The position numbers were made by a program, and so were the translations under genes. The notes under the pieces were generated by a model. It was not told where the DNA came from. It saw nothing but the letters and a program-made list of their open reading frames with translations, and searched no databases. Source: a virus. Taken from it: a DNA stretch of 47,071 nucleotides. The stretch spans positions 1-47,071 of IMG/VR virus record IMGVR_UViG_3300023091_000004, one strand, 5' to 3'. Numbering within the stretch: position 1 is the first letter of the stretch; every line of letters starts with the position of its first letter. Positions 349 through 45,942 of the stretch are shown in pieces.

Positions 349-2565
349 CTACCACGACCTCGACACCGCGCACCCCATCAACGGCAAACCCGTGATGTAG
401 TCAAGTGTGGGTACTCCTGGCCCAAGGATTGGGAGGCCCCGAGCGATGCCGTAGACCGCTGCCGGGCCTCCAAGGAGGATCTGCGGGGCGATCAGGCTGA
501 CCGCGATGCCTGCGGTGAGCGTCATGGCCAGACCCGCAGTCACTGAAACAGCAGCACCGGCCGTCAGGGAGATGGCCCCACCTGCCGCCTGGGTGATGGC
601 GCCCCCCGCGCTGGTCGAGCAGGCACCCCCAGCCACAGTTGAGTAGGCCCCGCCTGCGAAGTTCGAGATGGCACCGCCAAGGACGCTCGTGGACATCGCG
701 CCCGCAAGGACAGTCTGAACCAAGCCGCCTGCAAGGATGGTCGCGACCTTGCCACCGGCCACTATCGTCTCGATGACCGCGAGGCCGTAGTTCAACTGAG
801 ACTGTCCGGCTATGGTCTCGCTCTTGTTGCTGCTGTTGAGCGTGTAGCCGCTCGTCGAGTTGAGGAGGATCTTAGTTGCGTGCGCCCCGAACGTCCCGTC
901 GGTGACGGTGTAGGACGATCCATTGATCGTCAGGGTGTAGTCGCCCGTGATGCTTCGCCGCTCGTTACCTCGGACGACGTTCGACAGGGCGAAGCCCTCA
1001 TTGTCGTTCCCCATGTAGGTGTTGTCCACCGAGCCATGGTAGATGGGGCCGATGCTCTTGCCGACGGCGTTCTTGCCAACCTCGAATTCGATGCCCCCCT
1101 CCAGGAAGGCACGGATGCTCTCCCCGGTGCTGACCTCTCTGCCGACATAGACCTTGATGCCCCCGCCGAAGCTGGCCTCGACACTGACGTTCTTGGTGCC
1201 GTCGTAGGTGTCCTCGGCGACGGAGCCAGGGACGTTGACGTAGACCTTACCCTGCTTGGCGACGCAGATGCCGAAGGGGTTCTCTTCGACGTTAGCCTCG
1301 GGGTGGTTGATGCGGAAGAGATAGGCTCCCGCCTGGTTGTTGACCTCGTAGTCCGCGACGCCCGCTGTCCTGATGGCTTCGACGAGCTTAAAATGACCCG
1401 CGCCAGGTTGGCCCCAGTTCGAGAAGAGTGTTGGCTTGAGAACCTTCCCGTAGAGGTTCATCGAATCCGAGTCATCCGTCCGGTTACCGACCACCGTGCC
1501 CATGACGTGCTCGATGTAGACACGCGGATTGACTGTATCGACATTGAAGCCGTCAATCTCGTCGAGCATGTCCTGGACGCCATCCGTGACGTGCTTCAGC
1601 TCGATGCGGTGCTCCGTGTACATATCTCCCGGCGTCTTGATGCTCTCGGGATTCGCGTACGGGGTGTTCGAGGCGAAGAAGGTCTTCTTCCCGTTCGAGT
1701 AGGTGACGGACGGGAACTCTGAGTTGTTGAAGAACGAGTTGACGACTCCGCTCGTGCTCGCGAACTTCTGGGGGTCTCCGGGATTGCCAGGTCCGAGCAG
1801 TTCGAGGATGCTCTGGCCGAAGTAGTGAGACGGAACGCTCGAAGTGATGGCGTTGGGAGACGCGGTGGCATCTCCACCAGGAGCTTCGAGCAGGGGCTTG
1901 GTTGGGTCCTGGTTTTGGAAGATGTCGTAAGGGAGGTAGAATGCCCCGCGCCGGACGGGACCGTACTGCTCCTTGACGCCTGACGCCGAGTGAAAGGAGT
2001 TGACGGCCTGAGTGATGAACAGGCGCTCCGCGTCTCGAAGCTCGATGAGGTCGCCTGCGCGGTTGACCATCTGGATGCTCTTGTTGAGCACCAGCTCAGA
2101 ACCGTCTGCGGACATGCCCCCCACGTCACCTGGACGGAGCTTGAGCCTCTTGGTTCGCACCGTGGGGCTGTAGAGGGTGTTGTAGAGTTCCTGCTCGTCT
2201 GCCGTGACGTTCGACGAGTCGTCCGTGGCGATGGGGTCGAACTTCATCCCCGCGAGAATGCTCGACGGCAAGTAGCCCAGGATCATCGCGTCCTTGAGCT
2301 TCTTGTGCTTCGCACGGTAACCCAGGACGACAACGCTGTTGACCTCGGGGCAGCCACCCCAGAAGGAACGCGGCCCCGACATCGCCTGCGTGAGGTCAAT
2401 CTCCGTCCTGTCGGAGCCGTTCACGATGTGAACGTCGGCCTTCATGTGGATCTCGTCGACCCGCGTGATGACGCCTATCGTGACGCCGGAGATCCCGTTG
2501 GAATCTAGGAAGTCCTTGCCGTGGTACGAGCCCGCCGGGTGCTTCGGTTGTTGCGCGAGGCCCAT
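349..2565 (-). CDS. Baseplate central spike (gp5/VgrG-like needle)
   Basis: 738-residue membrane-puncturing tip of a contractile tail. Residues about 28-105 look like an OB-fold (GVITRVDEIHMKADVHIV, later VVVLGYRAKHKKLKDAMILGYL), the domain that joins the spike to the hub in T4 gp5 and VgrG. Residues 602-695 are a run of short AGGA-type repeats with small residues every 7-8 positions, typical of the trimeric beta-helix needle. A glycine/proline-rich tip follows. No lysozyme domain is visible here; a lysozyme-like domain is in the protein encoded at 5985-7793. Starts 3 nt after the stop of the hub gene, so the two are probably translated together. Last gene of the tail module. Confidence 0.85.
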   Translation of the reverse strand: MGLAQQPKHPAGSYHGKDFLDSNGISGVTIGVITRVDEIHMKADVHIVNGSDRTEIDLTQAMSGPRSFWGGCPEVNSVVVLGYRAKHKKLKDAMILGYLPSSILAGMKFDPIATDDSSNVTADEQELYNTLYSPTVRTKRLKLRPGDVGGMSADGSELVLNKSIQMVNRAGDLIELRDAERLFITQAVNSFHSASGVKEQYGPVRRGAFYLPYDIFQNQDPTKPLLEAPGGDATASPNAITSSVPSHYFGQSILELLGPGNPGDPQKFASTSGVVNSFFNNSEFPSVTYSNGKKTFFASNTPYANPESIKTPGDMYTEHRIELKHVTDGVQDMLDEIDGFNVDTVNPRVYIEHVMGTVVGNRTDDSDSMNLYGKVLKPTLFSNWGQPGAGHFKLVEAIRTAGVADYEVNNQAGAYLFRINHPEANVEENPFGICVAKQGKVYVNVPGSVAEDTYDGTKNVSVEASFGGGIKVYVGREVSTGESIRAFLEGGIEFEVGKNAVGKSIGPIYHGSVDNTYMGNDNEGFALSNVVRGNERRSITGDYTLTINGSSYTVTDGTFGAHATKILLNSTSGYTLNSSNKSETIAGQSQLNYGLAVIETIVAGGKVATILAGGLVQTVLAGAMSTSVLGGAISNFAGGAYSTVAGGACSTSAGGAITQAAGGAISLTAGAAVSVTAGLAMTLTAGIAVSLIAPQILLGGPAAVYGIARGLPILGPGVPTLDYITGLPLMGCAVSRSW

Positions 2566-2568
2566 GGA

Positions 2569-5500
2569 CTATCTCACCAACTGGCCCGGAACAGGGCCTA
2601 CCTGAGCTTGCTGGTTTTGAGCCTGTCCAAGTTGCAGCTCCTCGTTCGCAATCTTCTGCGTGAGCTGTGTGATGCTGGTTTGTAGCTCGGCAGCCGTCGT
2701 GGGTGTATTGCCCGCCCCAGCGAGATTGTAGAATGCCGACCCAGCGAGGGCTCCAGACTGAACTTGAGCAAGCTGCTTCTGAAGGATCGCAAGGTTGGCC
2801 TGGTCGGCCGAAATCTGCGCTGAAAGCTGTCCGATGTTCATGGTAGCCTGGAGGGTCTGCCCGAAGGTGTTCCACGCCTTGCTGAGCCCCGCTACGGAAG
2901 ACTGGGCTTGCTGGATGGCCGCGAGGGGGTCCCCCACGGCATAGCGAGTCGCCGCATTAAAGGGAGGAGCCGTGCCCCCGGTGTTCAAAGACGTGGGGTT
3001 GACCGCCTGCCCCTGGCTGTTCTGCGGAGCCTGGTAGATGCCCCCACGGAGCTGCTGCTCGTACTGCTGATGTGGCGCGTCGAGCGACGAGTACAAGTTC
3101 CAGAGGAACGTGTCGACCGACGTGGTCACCTGATCGAGTTGGGCGTCTGGTATGATGCCAAGAGAGAGATCGATGTTGCTCCCCGTGCTAGTAATACCGG
3201 GCGTCACGGCACCTCTCCAGGTACCCATATTCCAATCGTCTCCCATGACAGGCATGAGGTTCTGCACGTTGTAGCCCTGGTTCATGAAGGCCAGGTCGGA
3301 GCGTCCCAGGAGGCACATGCACTGTGGCTTGGTCGAGTCAATTCCGTCTTGGGATGACCCCACGGGGTCGATGACGGTCATCTCAGCCAACGTCAGTCCG
3401 TTCGAGAGCTGCGCGGCCTCGACGCTGGAGTAGATGCCCTGGGGAGGTGCCGATTGAGGGCCGGTGGGAAGGAAGTTCGTGCCCGTGCTCCCGTACTGAG
3501 GGCTCGGGGAGCCAGGGTTGACGAAACCGGACGTTTGCAAGTCGCTCGGCTGGAGGTTCGCGATGACGTTGGACGGGTTGTATTGAGCACCCGACTGCGG
3601 GGTGAGCCCCTGAGATTGCGCCGTGAGGGTCGCATAGAGATCCCCCGAGAGGGCCATCTGGACTCCGACGCTGGCTTGCTGCGTTTTGCTGCCCGTCGTG
3701 ATGAACTGACCATCGCTGAGCGCGAGCCCGCGACCGTAGCGGTAGTGCCCGATGACCTCGAAGCCTCGCTCGTCTGAGACGGGCCGGATCATGATGGTCG
3801 CGTTGCTCACCGGCTTGGTCTGCCCCGGGAGCATCGGGGTCGTCGTCAGCTTCCCGGCAGGGATGAGCACTAGGTCCCCGATGACCCCGATGTTTTTCAG
3901 CGTGGGGGATGAGCCCAACTTGCCGATGTCATGGGCGTAGACAAACGAGCCTGCCGACGTGAACCCAAACTGGGTTCGGTCCACGAGGTGCTTGAGGTTC
4001 AACTCCTGCACGGTGTTGTAGATGACCTGTCCTGACGTGTTCGTAGCGTCCTGTGCGGCAGTCTTGCTCAAGTTCTTACCCTTCTCATACTGCCCCGTCA
4101 CATTGGGGTTGGCCCCGGCTGCGGCCTCCCAGGACTTCACGTCCGGTGCGTAGGGCTGCAAGTAGGACATCACGACGTTGGGGTAGCCGAGGATCCTCCC
4201 AGTCTGCGGATTGCGCAGGATGAGCGGAGTGTAGGGGTTCTGCGACGGGGCGGTGCCCGTCATGTTCTGGGTGATGGGGGAGATGGCAGGGTCGTTGGGC
4301 ACATTGAGCTGGAAGGTGCCCCCATCCGAAAGCTGTTTACCCGTGTACTGAAACGCTTGTCCTCCAGGGTTCGCAGCTCCCGTCGTCACCACAGTGCCGG
4401 AGCCGGGTACCGTGACCGCTGCGTTCGGATTGTAGCTGGTCAACTGGAGCGTGCAGATGCCCTGGGGAGCCTTGAACTTCTCCCGTCGAGACGTGAGGGT
4501 GAGCGTCGTGGTCGCACGGCTCCCGAACGCAATGTTGTGGGAGATGCCCTGAACGTACCACATCTGGTCTTTCGACGCGAGATAGACAGGGAACCCAAGA
4601 CGCAGCTCGGGACGGAACGGGATGGTGACCGTGCCCCTGTGTCTCTTGGCGTTGATCTTGTCGAGCACGTCGAGCCCGAAGTAGAACATCGAGAGGGTGT
4701 CGGTGCCCGACCCCAAGAATTCGGAGTTCAACTGCTGCGTGCGCCACCCGTACTTGCGCAGGAGGTGGTAGTCCACGACGTTCGCGAACGGGGTCATCTC
4801 TGCGGGGAAGCCCCAGTCCGTGTTACCTGTGAAGTTGCCCCCTATCGTGAGCATGGTGATGACCTCGGCTTCGCTGTCCGAGAGGTCCCACTCGATCACG
4901 TCGATGTCCTGAATCCAGCTCACCGGCTTGTTCGAGAGGATGTCCAGGTTGTAGAAGGGCGGCTTGAAGACGATGTCCCCCGTGACATCCATGAAGAACT
5001 CGTAACCGATGGCCTCCTTCGCGGCGTTGGCGATCTCGAGCTTGGTCTGGTACTCGCTCTGCCAGAAGTTGACCGCGAGGTTCGAGTTGTTCGTGCGAAA
5101 CGCAGTGACGTTCGGGTCTTGTGGGTCGTAGCCGGCCTGCGCCGCACCGGGGCCACCACCTCCCGTTGCGATGTTCACGGAGGCCATGTTGCTCGGCACA
5201 CCCTTCGCGGACTTCTGCTTCAGCATCTGCCGTTGAAGCTGGTCGCCTCGAACGAGGGTGCCAGTCGAGCCGTACAGGAGCAGGTTCGTGCTCATGAGCT
5301 GGAAGCGTTGCGTCCAGTAGGCCATGATGTCCGAGAGCGCGGCCATGAAGGACTTCTGCTGCGGGTTCTTCTGCTGCATCAGGGTGACGAGCGACCCGCC
5401 CCCTTGCACGATGTCCCCGAAGGCGTTCTGGGCGAGCGTCCAGATGATGTCGAACGGATTCATCCCCGAGAAGGTGTTGCCGTTGAGCGTGAGCCCCATC

Positions 5501-5982
5501 TGGGACGGGACCGGCGAGGTGTACGCCGGGTTGATGTTCATACGGCAGAGTTCCCACCACTTAAGGATATCCGCGCAGTGGAGAGAGACCGTGTGCTCGC
5601 CGCTGGAGTAGGAGTCGTTGACCTCCGTGATGAGCCCCCAAAACATGGGGTAGTATTGGGTCATCCCGTTGATGAGGTAGTAGCCCTTGCCGTAGATGTT
5701 CACTTCCATCATCGGGGAGATGACAGGGTTGTTGTCGAAATAGAAGTCGTCGATGCAGTGCCTCGGGACTGAAAGGTTGATAGACGCGGAGCCTGGGGCG
5801 CTGTCTACGGACAGGTCTACCGTGATGCTCGTGATGTATTTGTTGATGTCAAACGTCCGGTTGCACGTCGGGCATCCGGTGACTTGGCTGTTCTGGTTGA
5901 TGAGAACGAACGCATCTGGCGCCGTGACGACAACCGGACGAAGGTTCGGACTGAACGTGCCTTGGAACGGGCCCCTTGACAT
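2569..5982 (-). CDS. Baseplate hub protein (gp27/gpD-like) with long C-terminal extension
   Basis: 1137 residues. The N-terminal about 500 residues have the hub layout: a beta-rich opening (ITSITVDLSVDSAPGSASIN), then VNIYGKGYYL and MFWGLITEVNDSYSSGEHTV, then a second beta domain around EFFMDVTGDIVFKPPFYNLD and DIDVIEWDLSDSEAEV. Hubs such as T4 gp27 have about 390 residues, so over half of this protein is extra. The extension is Pro/Gly/Gln-rich. It ends in a coiled coil of heptad-like Q/L segments (near residues 1040-1120) separated by a short glycine-rich stretch. Lies between a baseplate/lysozyme gene (2 nt upstream) and the spike. Function from fold pattern and gene order; the role of the extension is unknown. 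Confidence 0.8.
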   Translation of the reverse strand: MSRGPFQGTFSPNLRPVVVTAPDAFVLINQNSQVTGCPTCNRTFDINKYITSITVDLSVDSAPGSASINLSVPRHCIDDFYFDNNPVISPMMEVNIYGKGYYLINGMTQYYPMFWGLITEVNDSYSSGEHTVSLHCADILKWWELCRMNINPAYTSPVPSQMGLTLNGNTFSGMNPFDIIWTLAQNAFGDIVQGGGSLVTLMQQKNPQQKSFMAALSDIMAYWTQRFQLMSTNLLLYGSTGTLVRGDQLQRQMLKQKSAKGVPSNMASVNIATGGGGPGAAQAGYDPQDPNVTAFRTNNSNLAVNFWQSEYQTKLEIANAAKEAIGYEFFMDVTGDIVFKPPFYNLDILSNKPVSWIQDIDVIEWDLSDSEAEVITMLTIGGNFTGNTDWGFPAEMTPFANVVDYHLLRKYGWRTQQLNSEFLGSGTDTLSMFYFGLDVLDKINAKRHRGTVTIPFRPELRLGFPVYLASKDQMWYVQGISHNIAFGSRATTTLTLTSRREKFKAPQGICTLQLTSYNPNAAVTVPGSGTVVTTGAANPGGQAFQYTGKQLSDGGTFQLNVPNDPAISPITQNMTGTAPSQNPYTPLILRNPQTGRILGYPNVVMSYLQPYAPDVKSWEAAAGANPNVTGQYEKGKNLSKTAAQDATNTSGQVIYNTVQELNLKHLVDRTQFGFTSAGSFVYAHDIGKLGSSPTLKNIGVIGDLVLIPAGKLTTTPMLPGQTKPVSNATIMIRPVSDERGFEVIGHYRYGRGLALSDGQFITTGSKTQQASVGVQMALSGDLYATLTAQSQGLTPQSGAQYNPSNVIANLQPSDLQTSGFVNPGSPSPQYGSTGTNFLPTGPQSAPPQGIYSSVEAAQLSNGLTLAEMTVIDPVGSSQDGIDSTKPQCMCLLGRSDLAFMNQGYNVQNLMPVMGDDWNMGTWRGAVTPGITSTGSNIDLSLGIIPDAQLDQVTTSVDTFLWNLYSSLDAPHQQYEQQLRGGIYQAPQNSQGQAVNPTSLNTGGTAPPFNAATRYAVGDPLAAIQQAQSSVAGLSKAWNTFGQTLQATMNIGQLSAQISADQANLAILQKQLAQVQSGALAGSAFYNLAGAGNTPTTAAELQTSITQLTQKIANEELQLGQAQNQQAQVGPVPGQLVR

Positions 5983-5984
5983 GA

Positions 5985-7793
5985 TTACGTCCCCAAGGCG
6001 CCAGAGATGGCGCCCGTGACAGCTCCGGGAGTGGTTGTTACGGCACGGACCCCCGTGGTGTAGGCGCTCGCGACCCCCTGGCCCAAGCTCGACATCCAGG
6101 TGTTGTTGGGGTTCTGGACGGGGATGGTGCCTGCGGGAACCTGCCAGCCGAGGCGTGGGTCTTGCTGCTGGTCCATCTCGAACCAGGCGCGCACGGTGAA
6201 CGTGAAGCTGTACTCCAGGGAGTAGGGCGTCTCGTCGGCCTCTGTGATGGTGAAGTTGTCAAAGCCCCCGACGTACAGAATGTTGTCGTAGAAGATATAG
6301 ATCGAGCCCATCATCGCGAGGTTGTCCCTGGTGCTCGTCGGGTTGATGTAGTCCTGCGTCCAGATACCCCCGTTGTTGCGGTAGATGAGGTACAGTGACA
6401 GGAGGTTCTGGTAGCTCGTCGAGAAGTTCCGAGCCATCCGCGTGATGCCAGGACCCCCCTCGGTCATACCACCAGGAGGGTTCGAGTCGAGAGCGTAGAA
6501 GGCAGCGATCTTGCCTGACGCCTCGATCTTGTCGAGCTGCTCGCCCCAGTGCTCGATGATGGGGCCGTTGCGTCCCCAGTTACCGTCTGAGGTGATCTTC
6601 TCCAGGGAGTTCTTGAACGACCTCGGGTTGACCAAGAGCCGCAGGGGCGGCGTCGTGGCCATCTGGTTGATCCGCTGCGTGATGTCGTTGGCGTAGGTGG
6701 CCTGTTTCTGCTGGAAGGATTGAGTCGCGATGGCTGCTGGGCTCAGGGTCGTCGTGGAGAAGGCGTCATTCTGCTGAGCGGCGGTCTGCGCGTTGGCTCC
6801 ACCTGCCCCGCTCTGCCACCCATTGGGGTTGGGAACGTCCCCCATAACAGGACGAGCCGCACCTGGGCCTCCTATGAGGCTGCTGACATCAATGGCTGAT
6901 GGGTCTGGAGCGTTGCTCTTGGCGCCCGCATAGAGACCCTCAAAGCCAGCTTGGTACTGAGCACCTGCGGCGGCCTTGTCGTAGTAGGTACCTGTGGTTT
7001 TATCCGTGTACGCCCCGTAGTACCCTTCGTTTCCAAGGGCGGTCACGAACCCCGTCACGTCCCCTGAAGCGGCAGATTTCTTGGCTGCACCTGAGATTAG
7101 TGTTGTGTTAGCAAATGCCTGCACCCCTGCTTGAGGACTGCTAAAGGAGGCGAATGTCAACGCCTGTCCGTAACCATGGACGACAAACGAGTCGGGGGTG
7201 GGGTTACCCACACGAGCCGCTGAGGTGTTGTTTACGAACCCGGGGTTGTTGTCGGGCCAGTTCCCACTCGTCTCCTTGAAAGACTGAGCAGTCAGCATCC
7301 ACACAGTTTCTTTACTTGGAGGAGTACCGTTCTGCGCGAGAAGCGTCTGGTAGATGATTCCAGAGATCTGAGCCTCCGAGTATTTCTGGTACGTCGGCGG
7401 ACCCCCATTCTCCCCAGGCGGGGTCGTGCTTGGGAGGGCGCCCCCACTGGAGTCTGCCAACTGCGCCCTGTTGTTGACGTTGCCGAGAGCGCTGTTGGCC
7501 AACGAGCTGGCCACGGCGTTGTTGCCCGCCCTGGAGATAGCGCTAGGGAGGGGGCCAGATGGGGGAAGGAAACCGATGACGAACGGGATGTTCGGGGTCG
7601 TGCCGGGAGAGAAGGGGGACGAACTTGTCGTCGTAGACCCTGGCTGAACGTCGGTGAACGGAACGTACCCGTCCGAGTCAGGGTCGTTCGTGGTGAACAG
7701 GACGCTGAACCGCGTGAGCAGGTCATAGACGGACGGCGGGTAGAAGCCTGCCGTCTGCTGGAGCTGCTGGGCGATGTCGGAAGAGTTGCTCAT
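5985..7793 (-). CDS. Baseplate protein with lysozyme-like (glucosaminidase-type) domain
   Basis: 602 residues in three parts. Residues 1-130 are low-complexity. Residues 135-290 look like a peptidoglycan-hydrolase fold: AQSFKETSGNW with candidate catalytic Glu174, then DNNPGFV, YGQALTFASFSSPQAGVQAF and GYYGAY. This is the order seen in glucosaminidase-type lysozymes. Residues about 385-560 form a baseplate domain shared with the next upstream protein (7853-8827): WGEQLDKI, a YRNNGG segment and YSFTFTVRAWFEMDQ. The protein would carry wall-degrading activity on the tail near the hub. That activity is inferred from the motif pattern. Confidence 0.7.
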   Translation of the reverse strand: MSNSSDIAQQLQQTAGFYPPSVYDLLTRFSVLFTTNDPDSDGYVPFTDVQPGSTTTSSSPFSPGTTPNIPFVIGFLPPSGPLPSAISRAGNNAVASSLANSALGNVNNRAQLADSSGGALPSTTPPGENGGPPTYQKYSEAQISGIIYQTLLAQNGTPPSKETVWMLTAQSFKETSGNWPDNNPGFVNNTSAARVGNPTPDSFVVHGYGQALTFASFSSPQAGVQAFANTTLISGAAKKSAASGDVTGFVTALGNEGYYGAYTDKTTGTYYDKAAAGAQYQAGFEGLYAGAKSNAPDPSAIDVSSLIGGPGAARPVMGDVPNPNGWQSGAGGANAQTAAQQNDAFSTTTLSPAAIATQSFQQKQATYANDITQRINQMATTPPLRLLVNPRSFKNSLEKITSDGNWGRNGPIIEHWGEQLDKIEASGKIAAFYALDSNPPGGMTEGGPGITRMARNFSTSYQNLLSLYLIYRNNGGIWTQDYINPTSTRDNLAMMGSIYIFYDNILYVGGFDNFTITEADETPYSLEYSFTFTVRAWFEMDQQQDPRLGWQVPAGTIPVQNPNNTWMSSLGQGVASAYTTGVRAVTTTPGAVTGAISGALGT

Positions 7794-29136: not shown

Positions 29137-31239
29137 CTACCCGGCATACTCTTCCCCAGCCAGAACGAGCAGGCCCTCCGCGACCGCCGTCATGGGGTCC
29201 TTGGCCATGCGAACTTCCGAGATGAGGATGGGAAAGCCCTTCTTCTTGACCTGCTCGAACTCCTCCTTGAACACGGCCTCGAAGTTGATGGCCTTGGTCG
29301 TACCGCCCGACAGGACGAACGGGATGGGGTCAGGGAGGCTGAGCGTGCTCTGGATGCGTCGGAACTGGACGGCGATGTTCTCCAGACAGTAGCGGATGAG
29401 GGCTCGGATGTAGAGGCTGATGGCCTCGGCCTCTCTGTTGCCCGAGGCCGTGAGGTCGATGCCCCTCTCCTTGGCCGAGCACACACGGGCTGCGGTTGAC
29501 CCGAGAGCCTTGGCGGCATGCGAGTCGATCCAGTCACCACAGTTGTGGACAACCATGCCGGGAGAAGAAAACGAATGATGGTCCGATCCTACACGGATAT
29601 CCCACACGGATCGTCCGTAAGGCACAATCTTGATCGACTGCACCTTGTAGGTTGCAAAACAGGGACGGTTATCATGGACAGAGTGACCCTCTACTTTGAG
29701 CATCATATCAAGCACGGCGACCGCAACGTGTCCCGTTACACGAATCTCATAGGTGTCTTTCTTCCCTTCGATGCGAACACCTCGCTTGTTCACACCACCC
29801 TGACGCGGAAGACGCTTTTGAATGGAATGCTCTACCCCAAACCTGTTAAGCAGATGATGGGTCAGCATCACCACTGGGAGTGAGGTGTTGGTGATGCACC
29901 GTCGCTTAGGCTCCTCGTGTCCATCGGAATCCAAGAGGCCCTCAATGATACCCAGAGCCATCTGGTCTGAAATTCGGTCGATAGGGAGAGGGACAGTCTT
30001 CTCACCGTCTTTCGTATAGAACCGCTCTTTCATGTGACGGGAAATCACCGTGGAATGCAGTTTGATACGACACACCCCCTCAGCGGGATCTTCCACAAGT
30101 TGCACACCGAACCCCCCGAAGATGGTAGCAAGCACCGTACAAGTCTTGTCAATGGTTTTACGATCCTTAATATCGATTGCGATCTGAACGAATTCAGGAT
30201 CAACTGCGTAGGGGCCACAAGACCCGTCACCCAGGAACAGTCCGAAGAATCGCCCTAAATTGCGAGCAGTAGCAACCGTGATATTGTCTCCGTTTTTGCG
30301 ACCAAAGTAATACGTGCCTCCGCTCGTTTGTGAGGACTGGATCGTGGGAACACCACACATGTCCCCCTCTTTCAGATCCCCAGCTTGAACCCACTCCCAC
30401 CCGAAACGTCGAGAGACAAAAACACGGTGGTCTGAAGTGAGGCGGTGAGGCAAGCTGTTCAGGTGCTCCAGCTCTACTTCGAGAAGACTGTCTCGATAAC
30501 CGTTGTCCAACTTCTCTTCAACGGACACGAAAGTACCAGTGGCGTCGAGAACCATGTCCCCTGGCACGATATCCTCCATCATTTTCAGTCCGGTGTCCGT
30601 GACTACCGGGAAGTCGTCCGACAAACAGCGAGCAAGACTAAACTCCACCCCCTTGACCGTCTGGTAGGCTAGGGCACAATTCATCATACCGGAGCCGAAG
30701 CTCACGGCGAGGCCCGAGAAGTTCTCCGGGGCGCACTGCGAGTAGATGATGGCCATCGACTCGTTCATCGGGTGCGGGGTGTACCCGTGCTCCTGGAGGA
30801 TCTTCTTGAAGACCTCCTGGTGGTACACAATGTCCTGCTCGGGGTCATCGATGGGGCTCGCGGGCACGCTGTAGAAGCAGTGCTCGTTCGCAACCGTGGG
30901 CTCCTTCAGGACGTTGTAGACGAGGAGAGAGAGGATCTGCTGTGCCTCAAGCTCCCCTGCGGAGACGACACCCCGCTGGAGGGGGCGCCTGACCTCACGC
31001 TTGAAAAGGTTGGCCATGTTGAGAGCGCTGTCCCCGAGGACGATGAGCTGCCCGTCCTTCTCAACGTAGTCAACCTTGCCGAGCCGGAGTGTCTTCTTGG
31101 CTTCGATATCGAGGTCGATGAAAGCGTCTCGGACGCGAAGAGTCTCGGTCTTACCTTCGATCGTTGTGCGGGCTGCCAAAATATTCATTGTCCCACAATC
31201 TATGCCACAACCAGGCCGGTAACCTTTGGGGTCACTCAT
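29137..31239 (-). CDS. Actin-like ATPase precursor containing an intein
   Basis: 700-residue precursor. Without the intein (residues 205-566) the host protein has 338 residues, normal for ParM/Alp/MreB-type filament proteins. Phosphate-1 loop GCGIDCGTMN is at the N-terminus, phosphate-2 region LAVSFGSGMMNCALAYQ at about 177-193, and adenosine motif VLSGGTTKAINFEAVF near 642-657. The intein interrupts just after SLAR and before CGDWIDSHAAKALG, in the conserved segment after phosphate 2, so the ATPase should be inactive until splicing. Possible roles are DNA or phage positioning. Its start ATG overlaps the stop of the endonuclease gene upstream (ATGA). Confidence 0.85.
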   Translation of the reverse strand: MSDPKGYRPGCGIDCGTMNILAARTTIEGKTETLRVRDAFIDLDIEAKKTLRLGKVDYVEKDGQLIVLGDSALNMANLFKREVRRPLQRGVVSAGELEAQQILSLLVYNVLKEPTVANEHCFYSVPASPIDDPEQDIVYHQEVFKKILQEHGYTPHPMNESMAIIYSQCAPENFSGLAVSFGSGMMNCALAYQTVKGVEFSLARCLSDDFPVVTDTGLKMMEDIVPGDMVLDATGTFVSVEEKLDNGYRDSLLEVELEHLNSLPHRLTSDHRVFVSRRFGWEWVQAGDLKEGDMCGVPTIQSSQTSGGTYYFGRKNGDNITVATARNLGRFFGLFLGDGSCGPYAVDPEFVQIAIDIKDRKTIDKTCTVLATIFGGFGVQLVEDPAEGVCRIKLHSTVISRHMKERFYTKDGEKTVPLPIDRISDQMALGIIEGLLDSDGHEEPKRRCITNTSLPVVMLTHHLLNRFGVEHSIQKRLPRQGGVNKRGVRIEGKKDTYEIRVTGHVAVAVLDMMLKVEGHSVHDNRPCFATYKVQSIKIVPYGRSVWDIRVGSDHHSFSSPGMVVHNCGDWIDSHAAKALGSTAARVCSAKERGIDLTASGNREAEAISLYIRALIRYCLENIAVQFRRIQSTLSLPDPIPFVLSGGTTKAINFEAVFKEEFEQVKKKGFPILISEVRMAKDPMTAVAEGLLVLAGEEYAG
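29542..30627 (-). mobile_element. Intein with LAGLIDADG homing endonuclease, in the actin-like gene
   Basis: 362 residues, Cys205 to Asn566 of the precursor, with Cys567 as the +1 nucleophile. Block A CLSDDFPVVTDTGLKMMEDI; block B LTSDHRVFVS (T and H present); two LAGLIDADG helices, LGRFFGLFLGDGS and GIIEGLLDSDGHEE, each with its acidic residue; blocks F/G VWDIRVGSDHHSFSSP to VVHN-C. All splicing residues (C1, block B His, HN, C+1) and both endonuclease aspartates are present, so it looks active for splicing and homing. Boundaries are set by the extein motif. Confidence 0.93.
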
Positions 31240-31877
31240 TTGATCCTCATTTCGAGAGCTTCACGCAGTACCTCTGCGCAAAACTCAGGTTTTTTGTGTA
31301 GGTCATTTTCCCAGAGACGAACCACCCTATAGCCGTGGTTCAACAAGTAACTATTGCACGAGCAGTCGACCCCCCTCTGTTTCCGATGAGCGCTCGATAG
31401 CCGTCCCTCATCGGGATAGAGCAACGGGTTTGCGTGCCAGTAGTCCCCATCCGCCTGCACGACGAGAAGTTTGGACGGTACGAAGAAGTCCACTGTGTGA
31501 TAGCCGACAGGATACTGCTCAACAAACTCGACACCCAACTGTTGAAGGAGTCCCCTGACGATCAACTCAGGCTCCGTGACCTTCCGCTTGAACTTTGCCA
31601 TTCTCGCCGGAAACGCCGCCCTGAGCTTCTCTCTATACTCAGCCGCTTTCTCTGCCCCATAGACCTCTTCGTAACTCTTGCCTGTCTTGCTCTTGATGTG
31701 TGCTCTAACACCACGAGTGATATTCGCGACGTAGACAGGGTCTTGGTAGAGATATTCTACCTTGTGGATAGGATTTGCAGCCCTACTTCGTCTTCCAACG
31801 GGAATCGTTGAAAGCAACCGTCTGTGTGCTTGCTGCCTTCTCGACCCAGCCCCTGCGTTCAATGTCCGAGCGGTCAT
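31236..31877 (-). CDS. Vsr-like stand-alone homing-type endonuclease
   Basis: 213 residues from ATG 31877, but the first 30 or so residues overlap the 3' end of the Dps-like gene and look unnatural. A later non-ATG start near 31790 is likely. An N-terminal DNA-binding segment has SKTGKSYEEVYGAEKAAEYR, a motif common in phage homing nucleases. The C-terminal nuclease has TVDFFVPSKLLVVQADGDYW and H, then CNSYLLNHGYRVVRLWENDL. This is the Vsr/EDxHD-like fold with metal-binding Asp, Asp and His. It is coupled (ATGA) to the intein-bearing actin-like gene, a usual place for homing nucleases next to the gene they invade. Confidence 0.75.
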   Translation of the reverse strand: MTARTLNAGAGSRRQQAHRRLLSTIPVGRRSRAANPIHKVEYLYQDPVYVANITRGVRAHIKSKTGKSYEEVYGAEKAAEYREKLRAAFPARMAKFKRKVTEPELIVRGLLQQLGVEFVEQYPVGYHTVDFFVPSKLLVVQADGDYWHANPLLYPDEGRLSSAHRKQRGVDCSCNSYLLNHGYRVVRLWENDLHKKPEFCAEVLREALEMRIK

Positions 31878-42312: not shown

Positions 42313-43110
42313 CTAGACCCGAGGAGGCTTCGACTGAGCCAAGAAGTCCTCGACACGAGAACGGATGTCCTGTGGATCGGCCTTCAAGTCATCCTCCCAG
42401 ACGACAAGACAGGTCACGCCTACGGAGGCGTACCCGTCGATGAACTCCGCCTCACGCTCTTCTCGGGTCAGGTTCTTGTGCTTGGTGTGCCAGAACACAC
42501 CGTTGACCTCCACCACGAGGTGGGTGCGCAAGTCCCCCAAAGGGACTCCAGCCTGGTAAGCTGCGTACTGCTCCTTGGTTAGCACCACGAAGTCCGGGTT
42601 CTTGTGACGCCCATTAGCCCACGTCACCCAGTAGGAGAAGTCCCCCGAGTAGACCACCCGCTCTGGGACGATGTCCCTGAAAGCTCTCTCCGGGGTCGTG
42701 ATGCTCGGGATGGCCCCGTCACGAAAACGCTCCTTGAGCCGAGCGATGATGCGCTCCTTGACCGCAGGCACCTTCGAGATGTTGTCGACCCCGTAGACTT
42801 CGAGCAGGTGCTTCTTGCGAGCTTCGATGACATCAGGGTCAGAGAGATGGTGAACCCCACCATGGTTCGCTACGGAGGAGGCGTATGCGCGTTCTTGTAC
42901 TTCTTTCACCCCGAAACAACTACGCACGGGTTGACGATATTTTTCGGACAGAGTAGCCGAAAGACGATCGCGAACCTCTTGTGACCCCATGGGGTGGTCG
43001 GTCCCGTAGTGCTCCTGCGAGGTGGCCTTGGACTTCTCGGCAAACGCCTCTGTCTCCAGAAAGTGATTCGCGCCGTAACGTTCCTGGTTCGTGGCTATCC
43101 GCTTGGCCAT
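42313..43110 (-). CDS. Vsr-like homing-type endonuclease with DNA-binding repeats, 5' end probably lost
   Basis: 265 residues from ATG 43110. The N-terminal half consists of repeats of the type E(R/H)YG-x-(N/D)H followed by helical spacers (NQERYGANHFLETEAFAEKS, QEHYGTDHPMGSQEVRDRL, VYGVDNISKVPAVKERI), the DNA-binding repeats found in phage homing nucleases. The C-terminal nuclease has KNPDFVVL, VVEVNGVFWHTKHKN and VTCLVVWEDDL (Vsr/PD-(D/E)XK-type). The same repeats continue upstream of the ATG in frame (IERYGTANPFAAPEVQEKI, LEKFGVENPNQSPEVM) to 43275, just after a TAG at 43276-43278, with no normal start codon. The gene therefore seems truncated at its 5' end. Confidence 0.75.
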   Translation of the reverse strand: MAKRIATNQERYGANHFLETEAFAEKSKATSQEHYGTDHPMGSQEVRDRLSATLSEKYRQPVRSCFGVKEVQERAYASSVANHGGVHHLSDPDVIEARKKHLLEVYGVDNISKVPAVKERIIARLKERFRDGAIPSITTPERAFRDIVPERVVYSGDFSYWVTWANGRHKNPDFVVLTKEQYAAYQAGVPLGDLRTHLVVEVNGVFWHTKHKNLTREEREAEFIDGYASVGVTCLVVWEDDLKADPQDIRSRVEDFLAQSKPPRV

Positions 43111-43332
43111 GACCTCGGGAGACTGGTTCGGGTTCTCAACTCCGAACTTCTCCAGGTTCGTCGCTCGAATCTTCTCCTGTACCTCGGGTGCAGCAAAGGG
43201 ATTCGCGGTGCCATAACGCTCAATGTTCGTGACGATGCCCCGCTGACGAATCTCCTCGGAGTGATGGGTACATAGCTAGGCGGTGTCAACTGTAATTTGA
43301 GACCGAGATACGTAACCAGTATATGATCGCTA

Positions 43333-44709
43333 TCACAAACCTACGAATTTTCGAGGAGACAAAACGCCCCGACCGCTGTTGTGCGAGAGTATCCCACATG
43401 TGAGTACGAAACTCTCTGGGCCAGGCACAGAAAGATCATACGTGTATTCAACCGGAGGAAGTAGCAGCACTGAGGCTACGGTAACCTCAGCAACGCTACC
43501 GCCGTCGACCGTGACAATCTTGTCCCCCCCGCGCAGCGAACCAGCTTCCAGTGGAAGGACTGCCTCATCAACTCGATGAAACAACGAGTGATCCAAAGTG
43601 GTGGTGACTGCCCGACCGTCATCAAGAACCGTACGTACCAACGACTTGTGGAATGTCGCGTGTTGAACAACTTTGTCAACGATATGAAGACCAACATCAC
43701 CTGTAGAGGCCACGGCACAAACACGAAGCTGCCGAGCATCAAGGGGAACACGAATCTCAGGGCGATCCGTTACGAACAAGTCTTCGATGGCGATGTCCAC
43801 TGCACTGTCATCTGGCAGAAACACCCGTACTTGGGTCGACCCAAGTACGGAAAACGGCCCGAAGGAGCTGCGGATCCCCGTACCGTAGCGAGGTTGCTGT
43901 AGGCCCTTTATTACATTCACACACGCCTTGGCCTTCTCCAACTGCTTGTCGAACGTCTCCGCCGTGCTCGCCGCTGCGGACTCGTACTTGCTCGACTTCT
44001 CCAGATCGAGCGAGACACCTCCCACACTGTAGGAGAACTCATCCGCCACCCAGTTCAACTGAAGTGCGTGCAGCGCGAACCACATACCTCCCGTGAGGAG
44101 CAGGGTCGTCCACTCGCGTCGATAGGACACCATCGAGTCGACGTTGGCAAAAGGCGTCCTTGGGGGAGACGCGATGATCTCGTTGAGCGAGTCCTGGATG
44201 TACTCGTTCAGCTCCTCGTCCTGCCAGATGTAGCCGAAGACCCGGTTGAACTGACTCACGGTCTCTTCGTGAGCCGGCGGCCTGAAGTGGTAGTTGCGGT
44301 CGGGCGAATTATGTGAACAAATCCGAGAGTTTACGAGAACGAGGTTGTGGTTGTCTTCTACCGTGAGGTCGTACATCCACTGTCGGGGAGCGGCCTGCTT
44401 AACAGACAGCAAACGGACCTGACTGAGCTGTTCTTTGACGACAGCAAGTACGTTGTCCCCCGCTATGAAACACTCAGCATCCAAAGCGTCACGAGGGTTC
44501 GGGGTTGTGTAGACTCGATGCCCTCCGGTGACTACCGACCTCCCATGTTCTGTCTGAAGTTCCCAGATAGTTTCTGGACGCACGTCGGCGCGATGCACTT
44601 TGAGCACCTGTCGCCATTCTAGGGAGCCCGTAGGGGAGACGGAATGCGTCCGCAGAAGGCCCGACTGAAAGGCGGTTCGCAGACGCTCTCGTTGAACATC
44701 TGAAATCAT
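43333..44709 (-). CDS. C-terminal half of a fractured virion gene: C-intein, C-extein and a second intein
   Basis: 458 residues. Residues 1-134 are the C-terminal fragment of a split intein, including block B (TEHGRSVVTGGHRVYTTP) and block F (YDLTVEDNHNLVLVNSRICS, then HN). S135 is the +1 residue. Residues 135-286 (SPDRNYHFRPPAHEE, then a helical domain with LNWVADEFSYSVGGVSLDLE) are the C-extein. Residues 287-444 are a second intein, and SGRGVLSPRKFVGL ends the extein. After both splices the product joins residues 1-132 of the 45439-45942 protein to 166 residues of this one, giving a 298-residue virion protein. ATG 44709 overlaps the nuclease stop (ATGA) and has AAAGGAG upstream. Confidence 0.9.
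   Translation of the reverse strand: MISDVQRERLRTAFQSGLLRTHSVSPTGSLEWRQVLKVHRADVRPETIWELQTEHGRSVVTGGHRVYTTPNPRDALDAECFIAGDNVLAVVKEQLSQVRLLSVKQAAPRQWMYDLTVEDNHNLVLVNSRICSHNSPDRNYHFRPPAHEETVSQFNRVFGYIWQDEELNEYIQDSLNEIIASPPRTPFANVDSMVSYRREWTTLLLTGGMWFALHALQLNWVADEFSYSVGGVSLDLEKSSKYESAAASTAETFDKQLEKAKACVNVIKGLQQPRYGTGIRSSFGPFSVLGSTQVRVFLPDDSAVDIAIEDLFVTDRPEIRVPLDARQLRVCAVASTGDVGLHIVDKVVQHATFHKSLVRTVLDDGRAVTTTLDHSLFHRVDEAVLPLEAGSLRGGDKIVTVDGGSVAEVTVASVLLLPPVEYTYDLSVPGPESFVLTCGILSHNSGRGVLSPRKFVGL
43378..43851 (-). mobile_element. Contiguous mini-intein with Ser1
   Basis: 158 residues (S287-N444) inside the C-extein, with S445 as +1. Block A SVLGSTQVRVFLPDDSAVDI fits C-L-x-G-x-T-x-V with Ser in place of Cys1. 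Block B is GRAVTTTLDHSLFHR, and F/G is YDLSVPGPESFVLTCGILSH ending N. No endonuclease domain. The splice would join RSSFGPF to SGRGVLSPRKF. The start is placed at Ser287 because the VLGSTQV pattern requires it. Confidence 0.85.
44308..44709 (-). mobile_element. C-terminal fragment of the split intein (134 residues)
   Basis: Runs from the start of the 43333-44709 gene to Asn134, with the penultimate His intact and Ser as +1. It contains block B (TGGH) and blocks F/G but no block A, which is supplied by the 35-residue N-fragment at 45442-45546. It has no endonuclease motif. Confidence 0.88.
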
Positions 44710-45461
44710 AACCCAAGCTCCTTTTCAGTCCAGACTGCAAACCCCCAAGACACGCGTCTAGCTTGCTCGGCAGCCACCATAAGACGAGCAATCTGTTTGT
44801 AGTTGTTACCAACCTTGGGGTGAGTCAAAACCCACACAGGTTTGACCTCTACAAGTTGAACAGACTGGTCTTCATAGGTCACTAGGAAGTCGGGATATAT
44901 CCGTCGTCCTTCCGGCAATACTAGAGGAGGCTCGTACTCATAGGAGTGTACATCGGAGTTGCTCTCCAGCTTGATGACAGCCTGACGCTCGTATGTGCTA
45001 CGAACCCGAAATCGGGAGCCCCTGTTGGAGCACTTGGTAGCTTCAACCTCACACCAAGTGCCGTACCCGCCGCACTTCCCGAACTTGGAATGGGGGTTCT
45101 CCAAGAGTGCGTAGAACTTGCCAGCCCCCCACTCATTCTTGAGGCGCTCCGACAACCATGGCTTCTTCTCGCCCTTCCTGGATGCTCCTACTCTGGCTGC
45201 ATTCTCTTGGCGGTTCTTCTTCGAGGCTGGATTCCACGTAGCTTTAGTGCCCCGTTCAATAGCCCCCAACGAAAGACCCGTTACCTCGATCATGCGTGTC
45301 CACGACATACCAGAAAGGTGTAACTCCGTGATGATGTCCCGGCGTTTCTCACCCACCCATCGCTGATCCTTGGGCAGTCTCCCCTTGCGAGAAAACAGCC
45401 CCCACGTTACTCCGTGCTTCTCAAGCAGGGGTACCAAGTCACTGTGGAGGGTTGAGGTCAT
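44706..45461 (-). CDS. TnsA-like PD-(D/E)XK nuclease between the split-intein halves
   Basis: 251 residues from ATG 45461 (GGGAGG upstream), overlapping the N-half gene by 23 nt. An upstream ATG at 45545 lies inside the N-intein coding region and is less likely. An HTH-like part near 40-75 (DIITELHLSGMSWTRMIEVT, GLSLGAIERG) is followed by basic linkers. The nuclease core is RIYPDFLVTYEDQSVQLVEV then KP: the PD...ExK signature of TnsA/PD-(D/E)XK enzymes, with EYEPPLVLP before it. A homing nuclease gene in the break of a fractured gene is the arrangement expected when the nuclease mobilises the split locus. Confidence 0.78.
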   Translation of the reverse strand: MTSTLHSDLVPLLEKHGVTWGLFSRKGRLPKDQRWVGEKRRDIITELHLSGMSWTRMIEVTGLSLGAIERGTKATWNPASKKNRQENAARVGASRKGEKKPWLSERLKNEWGAGKFYALLENPHSKFGKCGGYGTWCEVEATKCSNRGSRFRVRSTYERQAVIKLESNSDVHSYEYEPPLVLPEGRRIYPDFLVTYEDQSVQLVEVKPVWVLTHPKVGNNYKQIARLMVAAEQARRVSWGFAVWTEKELGL

Positions 45462-45942
45462 GGAGAGCCTCCCAAAGATATCCCATGGAGAGAACCATTT
45501 TCTCTCCGTCCACGTCAAGTTCGATGGTCTCCTCTTCTCCAACACAGTTGTCTCGGAGGAGAATCCTCAACCTTCGGATGCAATCCCTCTCGATCTCCGA
45601 GAACTCCGGCCCTGTGGGGAACACCACGGACTTGTTCGCGACGACGAACTCCTGGAGCACCTGCTGGACGGGCCCCCCGACCAGCTCACGGAACGTCCAG
45701 CGGACTCGGTAGTTCCCGAGGTTGGCGTCGAGCGGGATGATGACGCTTGCGTAGTATTCCCCGACGCTCGGGTTGGCAGGCTGGCGCCTCGGGGGACCGA
45801 GGAGAGCTTCCCTCCCGGTCGTGAAGTCGAAAAGGGCGTAGCTGATCTCGGCCGCGTTCACGGGAGTACCGTTCGACCCATCGAGGAAGATGTTGAGGTC
45901 TCCCTTGCCGAGCTGCTGCCCTCTGAAGAACGAGACGGCCAC
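45439..45942 (-). CDS. N-terminal half of the fractured virion gene with N-intein
   Basis: 167 residues from a GTG start (45942) with AAGGAG upstream. Residues 1-105 are an Ig-like domain (GKGDLNIFLDGSNGTPVNAA, LGPPRRQPANPSVGEYYAS) paralogous to one in 46195-46920. Residues 110-132 (CIRRLRILLRDN) end the N-extein. Residues 133-167, starting CVGEEETIELDVDGEKMVLS, are the N-intein, containing block A only. It cannot make the full virion protein alone; it needs the 43333-44709 product in trans. Confidence 0.9.
   Translation of the reverse strand: MAVSFFRGQQLGKGDLNIFLDGSNGTPVNAAEISYALFDFTTGREALLGPPRRQPANPSVGEYYASVIIPLDANLGNYRVRWTFRELVGGPVQQVLQEFVVANKSVVFPTGPEFSEIERDCIRRLRILLRDNCVGEEETIELDVDGEKMVLSMGYLWEALHDLNPPQ
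45442..45546 (-). mobile_element. N-terminal fragment of the split intein (35 residues)
   Basis: Cys133 to Gln167 of the preceding gene, ending at its own stop. It contains block A (CVGEEETIEL) and one helix-turn (GYLWEALHDLNPPQ). The cut lies between blocks A and B rather than near the usual endonuclease site. This is an atypical split, with a short N-part and a long C-part. Confidence 0.87.

Follow-up and report, generated by a model that had tools for sequence, protein, structure and literature searches.

We found a probable virion gene that is fractured by a TnsA-like nuclease gene and whose two halves would be rejoined by an atypically split intein. It lies in a single 47,071-base metagenomic contig (IMG/VR virus record IMGVR_UViG_3300023091_000004), the whole of which is called the window here. 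The host gene encodes a probable head-tail connector (neck) protein of huge or giant phages. Three overlapping genes on the minus strand make up the locus: an N-gene (45439-45942, 167 aa), the nuclease gene (44706-45461, 251 aa) and a C-gene (43333-44709, 458 aa). The N-gene ends in the N-terminal part (IntN), and the C-gene begins with the C-terminal part (IntC), of one intein, named intein a, at a position named site a. The C-gene also holds a second, contiguous intein (intein c). We consider it highly probable that intein a is split by the TnsA-like nuclease gene, that the connector is produced by trans-splicing and that the cassette spreads by nuclease-driven homing.

A first-pass annotation, made from the sequence alone, had described one virion protein encoded as two minus-strand genes, and the open reading frames (ORFs) and their overlaps match this description. 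The GTG start of the N-gene is preceded by AAGGAG; 132 extein residues are followed by C133 and an IntN of 35 residues (CVGEEETIELDVDGEKMVLSMGYLWEALHDLNPPQ), which contains block A only. The 134-residue IntC starts ahead of block B (VTGGH) and runs through block F (MYDLTVEDNHNLVL) to a terminal HN and Ser+1. Thus, intein a is an atypically split intein, and Cys1, TGGH, YDLTVEDNHN, the terminal HN and Ser+1 are features of class 1. In the search against intein profiles that the annotation had proposed, Pfam Intein_splicing (PF14890) matches the C-gene in three stretches (E=1.3e-13). As described earlier, the nuclease gene overlaps both neighbours. Its start had to be refined: the listed GTG (45545) is probably unused and the ATG at 45461, after GGGAGG, is used instead, which makes the overlap 23 nt with the N-gene; that with the C-gene is 4 nt (ATGA). 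Cys1 is kept in all site-a alleles, and many relatives end in SN instead of HN. The +1 residue is Ser or Cys in 18 of 18 intein-bearing sequences and in 1 of the 62 without an intein, where Asn or Lys predominates (Fisher p=5e-17, an indicative value because the sequences are related). Compared with its relative in locus L008, the window differs at codon positions 1/2/3 by 0.21/0.18/0.68 in IntN, 0.32/0.25/0.58 in the nuclease and 0.30/0.26/0.59 in IntC, a pattern indicating that all three are under purifying selection.

The joined extein was searched against 2.9 million viral contigs. With an alignment as query, relatives were found in 218 contigs; 80 were kept, and in most of these the gene is uninterrupted. 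Loci carry L numbers below. In L004, the gene is a single 296-aa ORF, 67% identical and uninterrupted through both intein sites, with the junction reading RILLRDN-KPDRNYHF; the closest relative (L013, 84% identical) is also intein-free. Altogether, about 70 intein-free loci align without gaps over both the RDN-SPD site and the site of the second intein, rather than failing to align across the junction, and this confirms the continuous extein join that had been proposed. Intein a is inserted in the most conserved motif of the gene (RDN/PDRNYHF, the slash marking the insertion point here and below). The connector role is suggested by phrog_17327, found in 9 of 32 extein homologs (best E=3.2e-5), and by the Tunturi_5 homolog, annotated as a connector in its record. 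The fold predicted on L013 consists of an immunoglobulin (Ig)-like domain followed by a helical domain; a PDB sequence search with the extein profile gave no match. The first-pass statement that this protein would depend on trans-splicing is supported by the homologs, for what is a probable virion protein.

The nuclease had been called TnsA-type, and both sequence and predicted structure agree. It matches PF08722 (TnsA_N; E=7.9e-7, 30.0 bits against a cut-off of 26.5), and the catalytic Glu, Asp and Glu-x-Lys residues (E158, D191, E205 and K207) are invariant in 12 of 12 full-length relatives. In the AlphaFold model (predicted local distance difference test, pLDDT, 87), TnsA is the only PDB match with E <1e-3 (1t0f, E=4.1e-5, probability 1.00). 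Thus, the family match, the fold and the active site all identify a TnsA-like nuclease. Adjacent TnsB and TnsC genes, as in Tn7-like transposition, are missing; the intein halves are the sole flanks of the nuclease gene. A PDB sequence search with the nuclease profile gave nothing beyond a short match to the 'CAP REPEAT' chain, and PADLOC assigned no defence family to the window nuclease. Searching viral sequences with the nuclease profile recovered 20 loci, every one of them at site a of this gene. The protein is presumed to be a homing endonuclease.

Site-a alleles were collected by profile searches with the C-intein and the nuclease, followed by ORF inspection. Intein a occurs as 24 distinct alleles at one site, 23 of which are divided at one common point, between blocks A and B, where the first-pass annotation had placed the split (the window, L006, L008, L010, L087, L092, L093, L094, L095, L096, L098, L099, L100, L101, L104, L105, L106, L117, L121, L122, L128, L130 and L138), with an IntN of 29-37 aa. 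The remaining allele is contiguous (L103, a single 450-aa ORF). In most split alleles, the halves are separated by a TnsA-like nuclease gene; in L092 an HNH nuclease takes this place, and the TnsA gene is truncated in L087 and partly deleted in L095. L010 and L094 hold relics of about 30-45 codons with internal deletions, in which the start and end of the nuclease gene are kept. The same order and open frames are present in many contigs from different samples, including a separately deposited 485-kb phage with the same fracture (LR745208.1, L006). From one metagenomic contig like the window, one might suspect a faulty assembly, or else an ordinary intein with an in-frame nuclease that had become a pseudogene through a frameshift; given this recurrence, we find such an origin hardly credible. 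Recurrence in many distinct contigs, together with the third-position divergence of IntN, nuclease and IntC, places the arrangement beyond chance. The combination had been called unusual; the arrangement is not unique, since 23 distinct contigs show this fracture with homologous intein halves. On this comparative evidence, the window appears as one snapshot of a widespread, mobile system.

The same alleles bear on two other explanations. The nuclease could be a phage head-completion enzyme residing in a neck gene block, with no part in homing: its best PHROG is 218 'head closure' (3.6e-10), and the host gene is itself a probable connector. However, every viral locus recovered with the nuclease profile lies inside the site-a intein, about 70 relatives have no nuclease in the gene, the nuclease is decaying in L010, L087, L094 and L095, whose virion gene is preserved intact, and an HNH nuclease substitutes for it in L092, all of which makes this role very unlikely. 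Alternatively, the two halves might act as separate subunits, the intein pieces being inactive and no splicing taking place. A precedent exists in a free-standing nuclease gene that split a phage gene into two functional peptides without an intein, as cited in PMC10448857. In the present gene, selection maintains IntN, IntC and the +1 nucleophile in the face of diverging exteins, Cys1, the His of block B and the Asn at the end are retained, and L103 has the same intein within one chain; we regard separate subunits as highly improbable. Trans-splicing and homing are very likely, as judged from conservation and distribution.

The two halves need not be neighbours. The contig JAKQDD010000211.1 (155 kb), assigned by binning to a Verrucomicrobiota metagenome-assembled genome, has the halves of intein a 67 kb apart on opposite strands (L138 and L166), and the N-gene junction in L166 reads RDH/CVAGEEVVEVDADGVRVLVRLDDLYDVVTSP, the latter part belonging to IntN. 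Each extein half has a single match in this genome. If the assembly is right, trans-splicing would thus be the sole way to join them.

The gene is also broken at a second place. Site b lies at extein residue 224 (DEF/S) and carries another intein family, with Ser1 and Ser+1, which is likewise split after block A. Split alleles with a Vsr/DUF559-type nuclease between the halves are found in L058, L060, L077, L010 and others, and contiguous inteins in L066, L105, L128 and L151. Both sites are fractured, with all pieces present, in L010, L095, L099, L100 and L122, so that in these five contigs one protein of about 298 residues would come from three polypeptides. Intein c of the window occupies a third place (GPF/S), where the other screened loci carry no intein. 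The first-pass annotation had considered it unrelated to intein a. It is indeed of a different subfamily; it belongs, however, to the Ser1 family of site b (clade support 100/100) and shares 51% identity with the intein of L077 (E=2.5e-50). It may have come from site b of this same gene; a test of its nesting inside the site-b inteins gave an approximately unbiased (AU) p=0.098. At site b itself, the window has no intein and has a Ser at the +1 position (44032-44034, minus strand; DEFS-YSVGG), where relatives mostly have Asp; this is possibly the scar of a lost intein. Ser at this position without an intein is also found in five other b-free loci. Elsewhere in the window, a 213-aa ORF (31236-31877, minus strand) is related to the Vsr/DUF559-type endonucleases of the site-b breaks in other phages.

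We then compared the histories of inteins and exteins. On a tree of 93 exteins, intein a is present in 18 rows and 14 gains or losses are needed. Each tree is at odds with the other: a deep split among exteins is rejected on the intein tree (p=5e-4), and a grouping of the window, L008 and L006, supported by the inteins, is rejected on the extein tree (p=5e-111); the window and L008 are 62% identical in the cassette and 48% in the extein. This conflict between trees, together with near-identical contigs that differ by the cassette, indicates that the element moves. Over about 10 kb, L060 and L105 share 97-99% identity, and the site-a cassette is present in L105 alone. The left flank of L105 differs from L060 by 12 mismatches in the first 50 nt and then by about one per 50, and the right flank by 71 mismatches in 345 nt. 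Such divergence is the pattern of co-conversion around a repaired break; sites a and b of L105 may have been replaced together. A 507-nt contiguous intein at site b distinguishes L128 from L130 (88-89% identical). Compared with L010, the site-b nuclease gene is gone from L128, the join falls at a GGAG repeat, and the sequence that once served as ribosome-binding site of the downstream gene, with its start codon, now lies within the fused intein. This points to a change from split to contiguous; the opposite direction would also be compatible with the sequence. Taken together, the comparisons display conservation, patchiness, horizontal spread, co-conversion and decay, with apparent re-fusion.

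We propose the following course of events. The three overlapping genes would be translated, probably in a coupled manner, because the ribosome-binding site of each downstream gene lies within the preceding gene. IntN (35 aa) and IntC (134 aa) would come together and, by trans-splicing, link residue 132 to Ser+1, and intein c, 152 residues further on, would excise in cis. As the conserved catalytic residues suggest, the mature 298-residue protein would result from one trans-splicing and one cis-splicing step. The nuclease would cut intein-free alleles at or near the RDN-PDR site, and in a co-infected cell, repair from the intein-bearing phage would copy IntN, the nuclease and IntC with their flanks, including the +1 Ser or Cys codon. 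Later, the nuclease may decay while the split intein persists, the halves may drift apart within the genome, or, as seen at site b, the nuclease gene may be deleted and the halves may fuse to a contiguous intein.

Several points weigh against this scheme. The nuclease matches a head-closure PHROG, as mentioned above, and the connector role is drawn from the phrog_17327 matches and the Tunturi_5 annotation, while a search of the extein fold against the PDB produced nothing significant, just weak Ig-fold and baseplate/adaptor matches (E >0.004). L138, which represents the dispersed halves, derives from a binned metagenome contig in which misassembly is possible. The tract in L105 runs into site b, and recombination independent of this nuclease could explain part of it. 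Homing is deduced from comparative patterns, namely patchiness, tree conflict and co-conversion. Splicing might accordingly be real and the cassette spread by ordinary homologous recombination, with no nuclease-driven homing: phage genomes are mosaic, alleles lacking a working nuclease persist (L010 and L094), and the L105 tract is long enough to reach the second site. On the other hand, the insertion is exactly at the conserved site, the divergence on the left is over within about 70 nt, the cassette is patchy among very close relatives and the nuclease active site is conserved; we think spread by such recombination without homing unlikely and retain nuclease-driven homing.

Fractured genes of the Dassa type reportedly carry nucleases of a Vsr-like family and are split at the usual point between blocks B and F. 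The present gene has in common with them that a nuclease gene interrupts a phage gene, that the break is bordered by complementary halves of one intein and that intact homologs exist elsewhere. It differs in its A/B split, in being a virion structural gene, in the double break of some contigs and in having, at site a, a TnsA_N nuclease in place of a Vsr-like one. Such fractured genes with split inteins and free-standing homing endonucleases are known, according to PMC10448857, which cites Dassa et al. 2009. The AceL NrdHF split intein likewise belongs to a fractured gene whose halves flank a nuclease, on a contig that is probably from a phage; it is, however, of class 3, with a GIY-YIG nuclease and a typical split of 98 + 48 aa (PMC7891396), whereas intein a is of class 1, with a TnsA-like nuclease and 35 + 134 aa. 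The short IntN with block A and the long IntC resemble those of the atypically split PolB16 OarG (PMC10189870) and AceL-TerL inteins. Published atypical IntN fragments have about 15-25 aa (PMC10189870, PMC11923092, PMC12707363), in contrast to the 29-37 aa found here in another host gene and sequence family. Intein c has Ser1 and Ser+1 in common with PolB16 OarG and is contiguous. The nuclease has the nuclease-domain fold of Tn7 TnsA with Glu, Asp and Glu-x-Lys (PDB 1t0f, 1f1z), but a different N-terminal helical part, no transposon partner genes and a location inside a split intein. Several intein sites per conserved gene and co-conversion are also known from haloarchaeal MCM inteins (PMC10643990), which are contiguous, unlike the split ones here that give two- and three-piece genes.

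Two related arrangements were seen in other contigs. In L011 (4370-8241), a clamp-loader-like gene is fractured at the usual B/F point with a TnsA-like nuclease (PF08722, 7e-9) between the halves, and its downstream gene has a further intein. In L163, L164 and L165, terminase-like genes are broken in two, with a nuclease-like ORF in the gap and a short IntN; as these resemble AceL-TerL, nucleases may occupy the A/B point more generally.

We lean somewhat towards a broader reading, in which TnsA-like nucleases would form a homing class for inteins split atypically between blocks A and B, fracturing would be reversible, one virion protein would be assembled from three polypeptides in several phages and, in one contig, the halves would have become dispersed. 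In this reading, the position of the nuclease gene would decide where an intein is split, here A/B and not the usual B/F; loss of the nuclease gene could re-fuse the halves, as in L128; and these phages would use two trans-splicing reactions for that virion protein. The searchable literature, which covers few subscription journals, yielded no relevant report linking TnsA to inteins or homing, and none of a natural gene in three intein-joined pieces. Fractured genes with nucleases and atypically split inteins are already established; the TnsA-like nuclease in this role, the three-piece virion genes and the visible healing from split to contiguous appear to be new. The origin of split inteins is an open question, and this one gene presents contiguous, nuclease-parted, decaying-nuclease, dispersed and re-fused inteins, so that the path between split and contiguous forms can be reconstructed and tested. 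The gene also adds a nuclease type without intein ties in the searchable papers, and supplies about 20 natural split inteins with a short IntN, useful for protein ligation; since intein pairs coexist in one gene, they should not cross-react. A conserved virion part appears to depend on one or two trans-splicing events.

Features of the fractured gene in the window, with the dispersed halves in JAKQDD010000211.1
Feature	Position	Strand	Remarks
N-extein, 132 aa, GTG start	45547..45942	-	first part of probable neck (head-tail connector) protein, with an Ig-like domain at the N-terminus
IntN of intein a, 35 aa, Cys1, block A only	45442..45546	-	stop codon 45439-45441
GGGAGG, ribosome-binding-like site of nuclease gene	45468..45473	-	within IntN coding sequence; read from sequence
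TnsA-like (PD-(D/E)XK) nuclease, 251 aa, presumed homing endonuclease	44706..45461	-	helical N-terminal part and C-terminal nuclease domain
AAGGAG, ribosome-binding-like site of C-gene	44718..44723	-	within nuclease gene; read from sequence
IntC of intein a, 134 aa, block B TGGH, block F, terminal His-Asn	44308..44709	-	
C-extein, 152 aa, opening with Ser+1 (SPDRNYHF...GIRSSFGPF)	43852..44307	-	
Intein c, contiguous mini-intein, 158 aa, Ser1, terminal HN, Ser+1	43378..43851	-	without nuclease
Final 14 extein residues, SGRGVLSPRKFVGL	43336..43377	-	stop codon 43333-43335
N-truncated DUF7487 homing-endonuclease-like frame	42313..43275	-	neighbour, not required for splicing
L138, nuclease and C-gene	4803-6552		about 25 kb in JAKQDD010000211.1
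L166, N-gene	1402-1893		93 kb in JAKQDD010000211.1, other strand

The neighbouring DUF7487 frame (42313-43275) lacks the counterpart of the first 147 residues of its homolog in L006 (477 aa), the alignment starting at residue 148, and a DUF7487-like gene is found at the same place in many relatives, both intein-bearing and intein-free. Just upstream of the fractured gene in L006, a 374-aa ORF (5012-6136) belongs to no Pfam family and has a nuclease-looking C-terminus with a PDFW motif.

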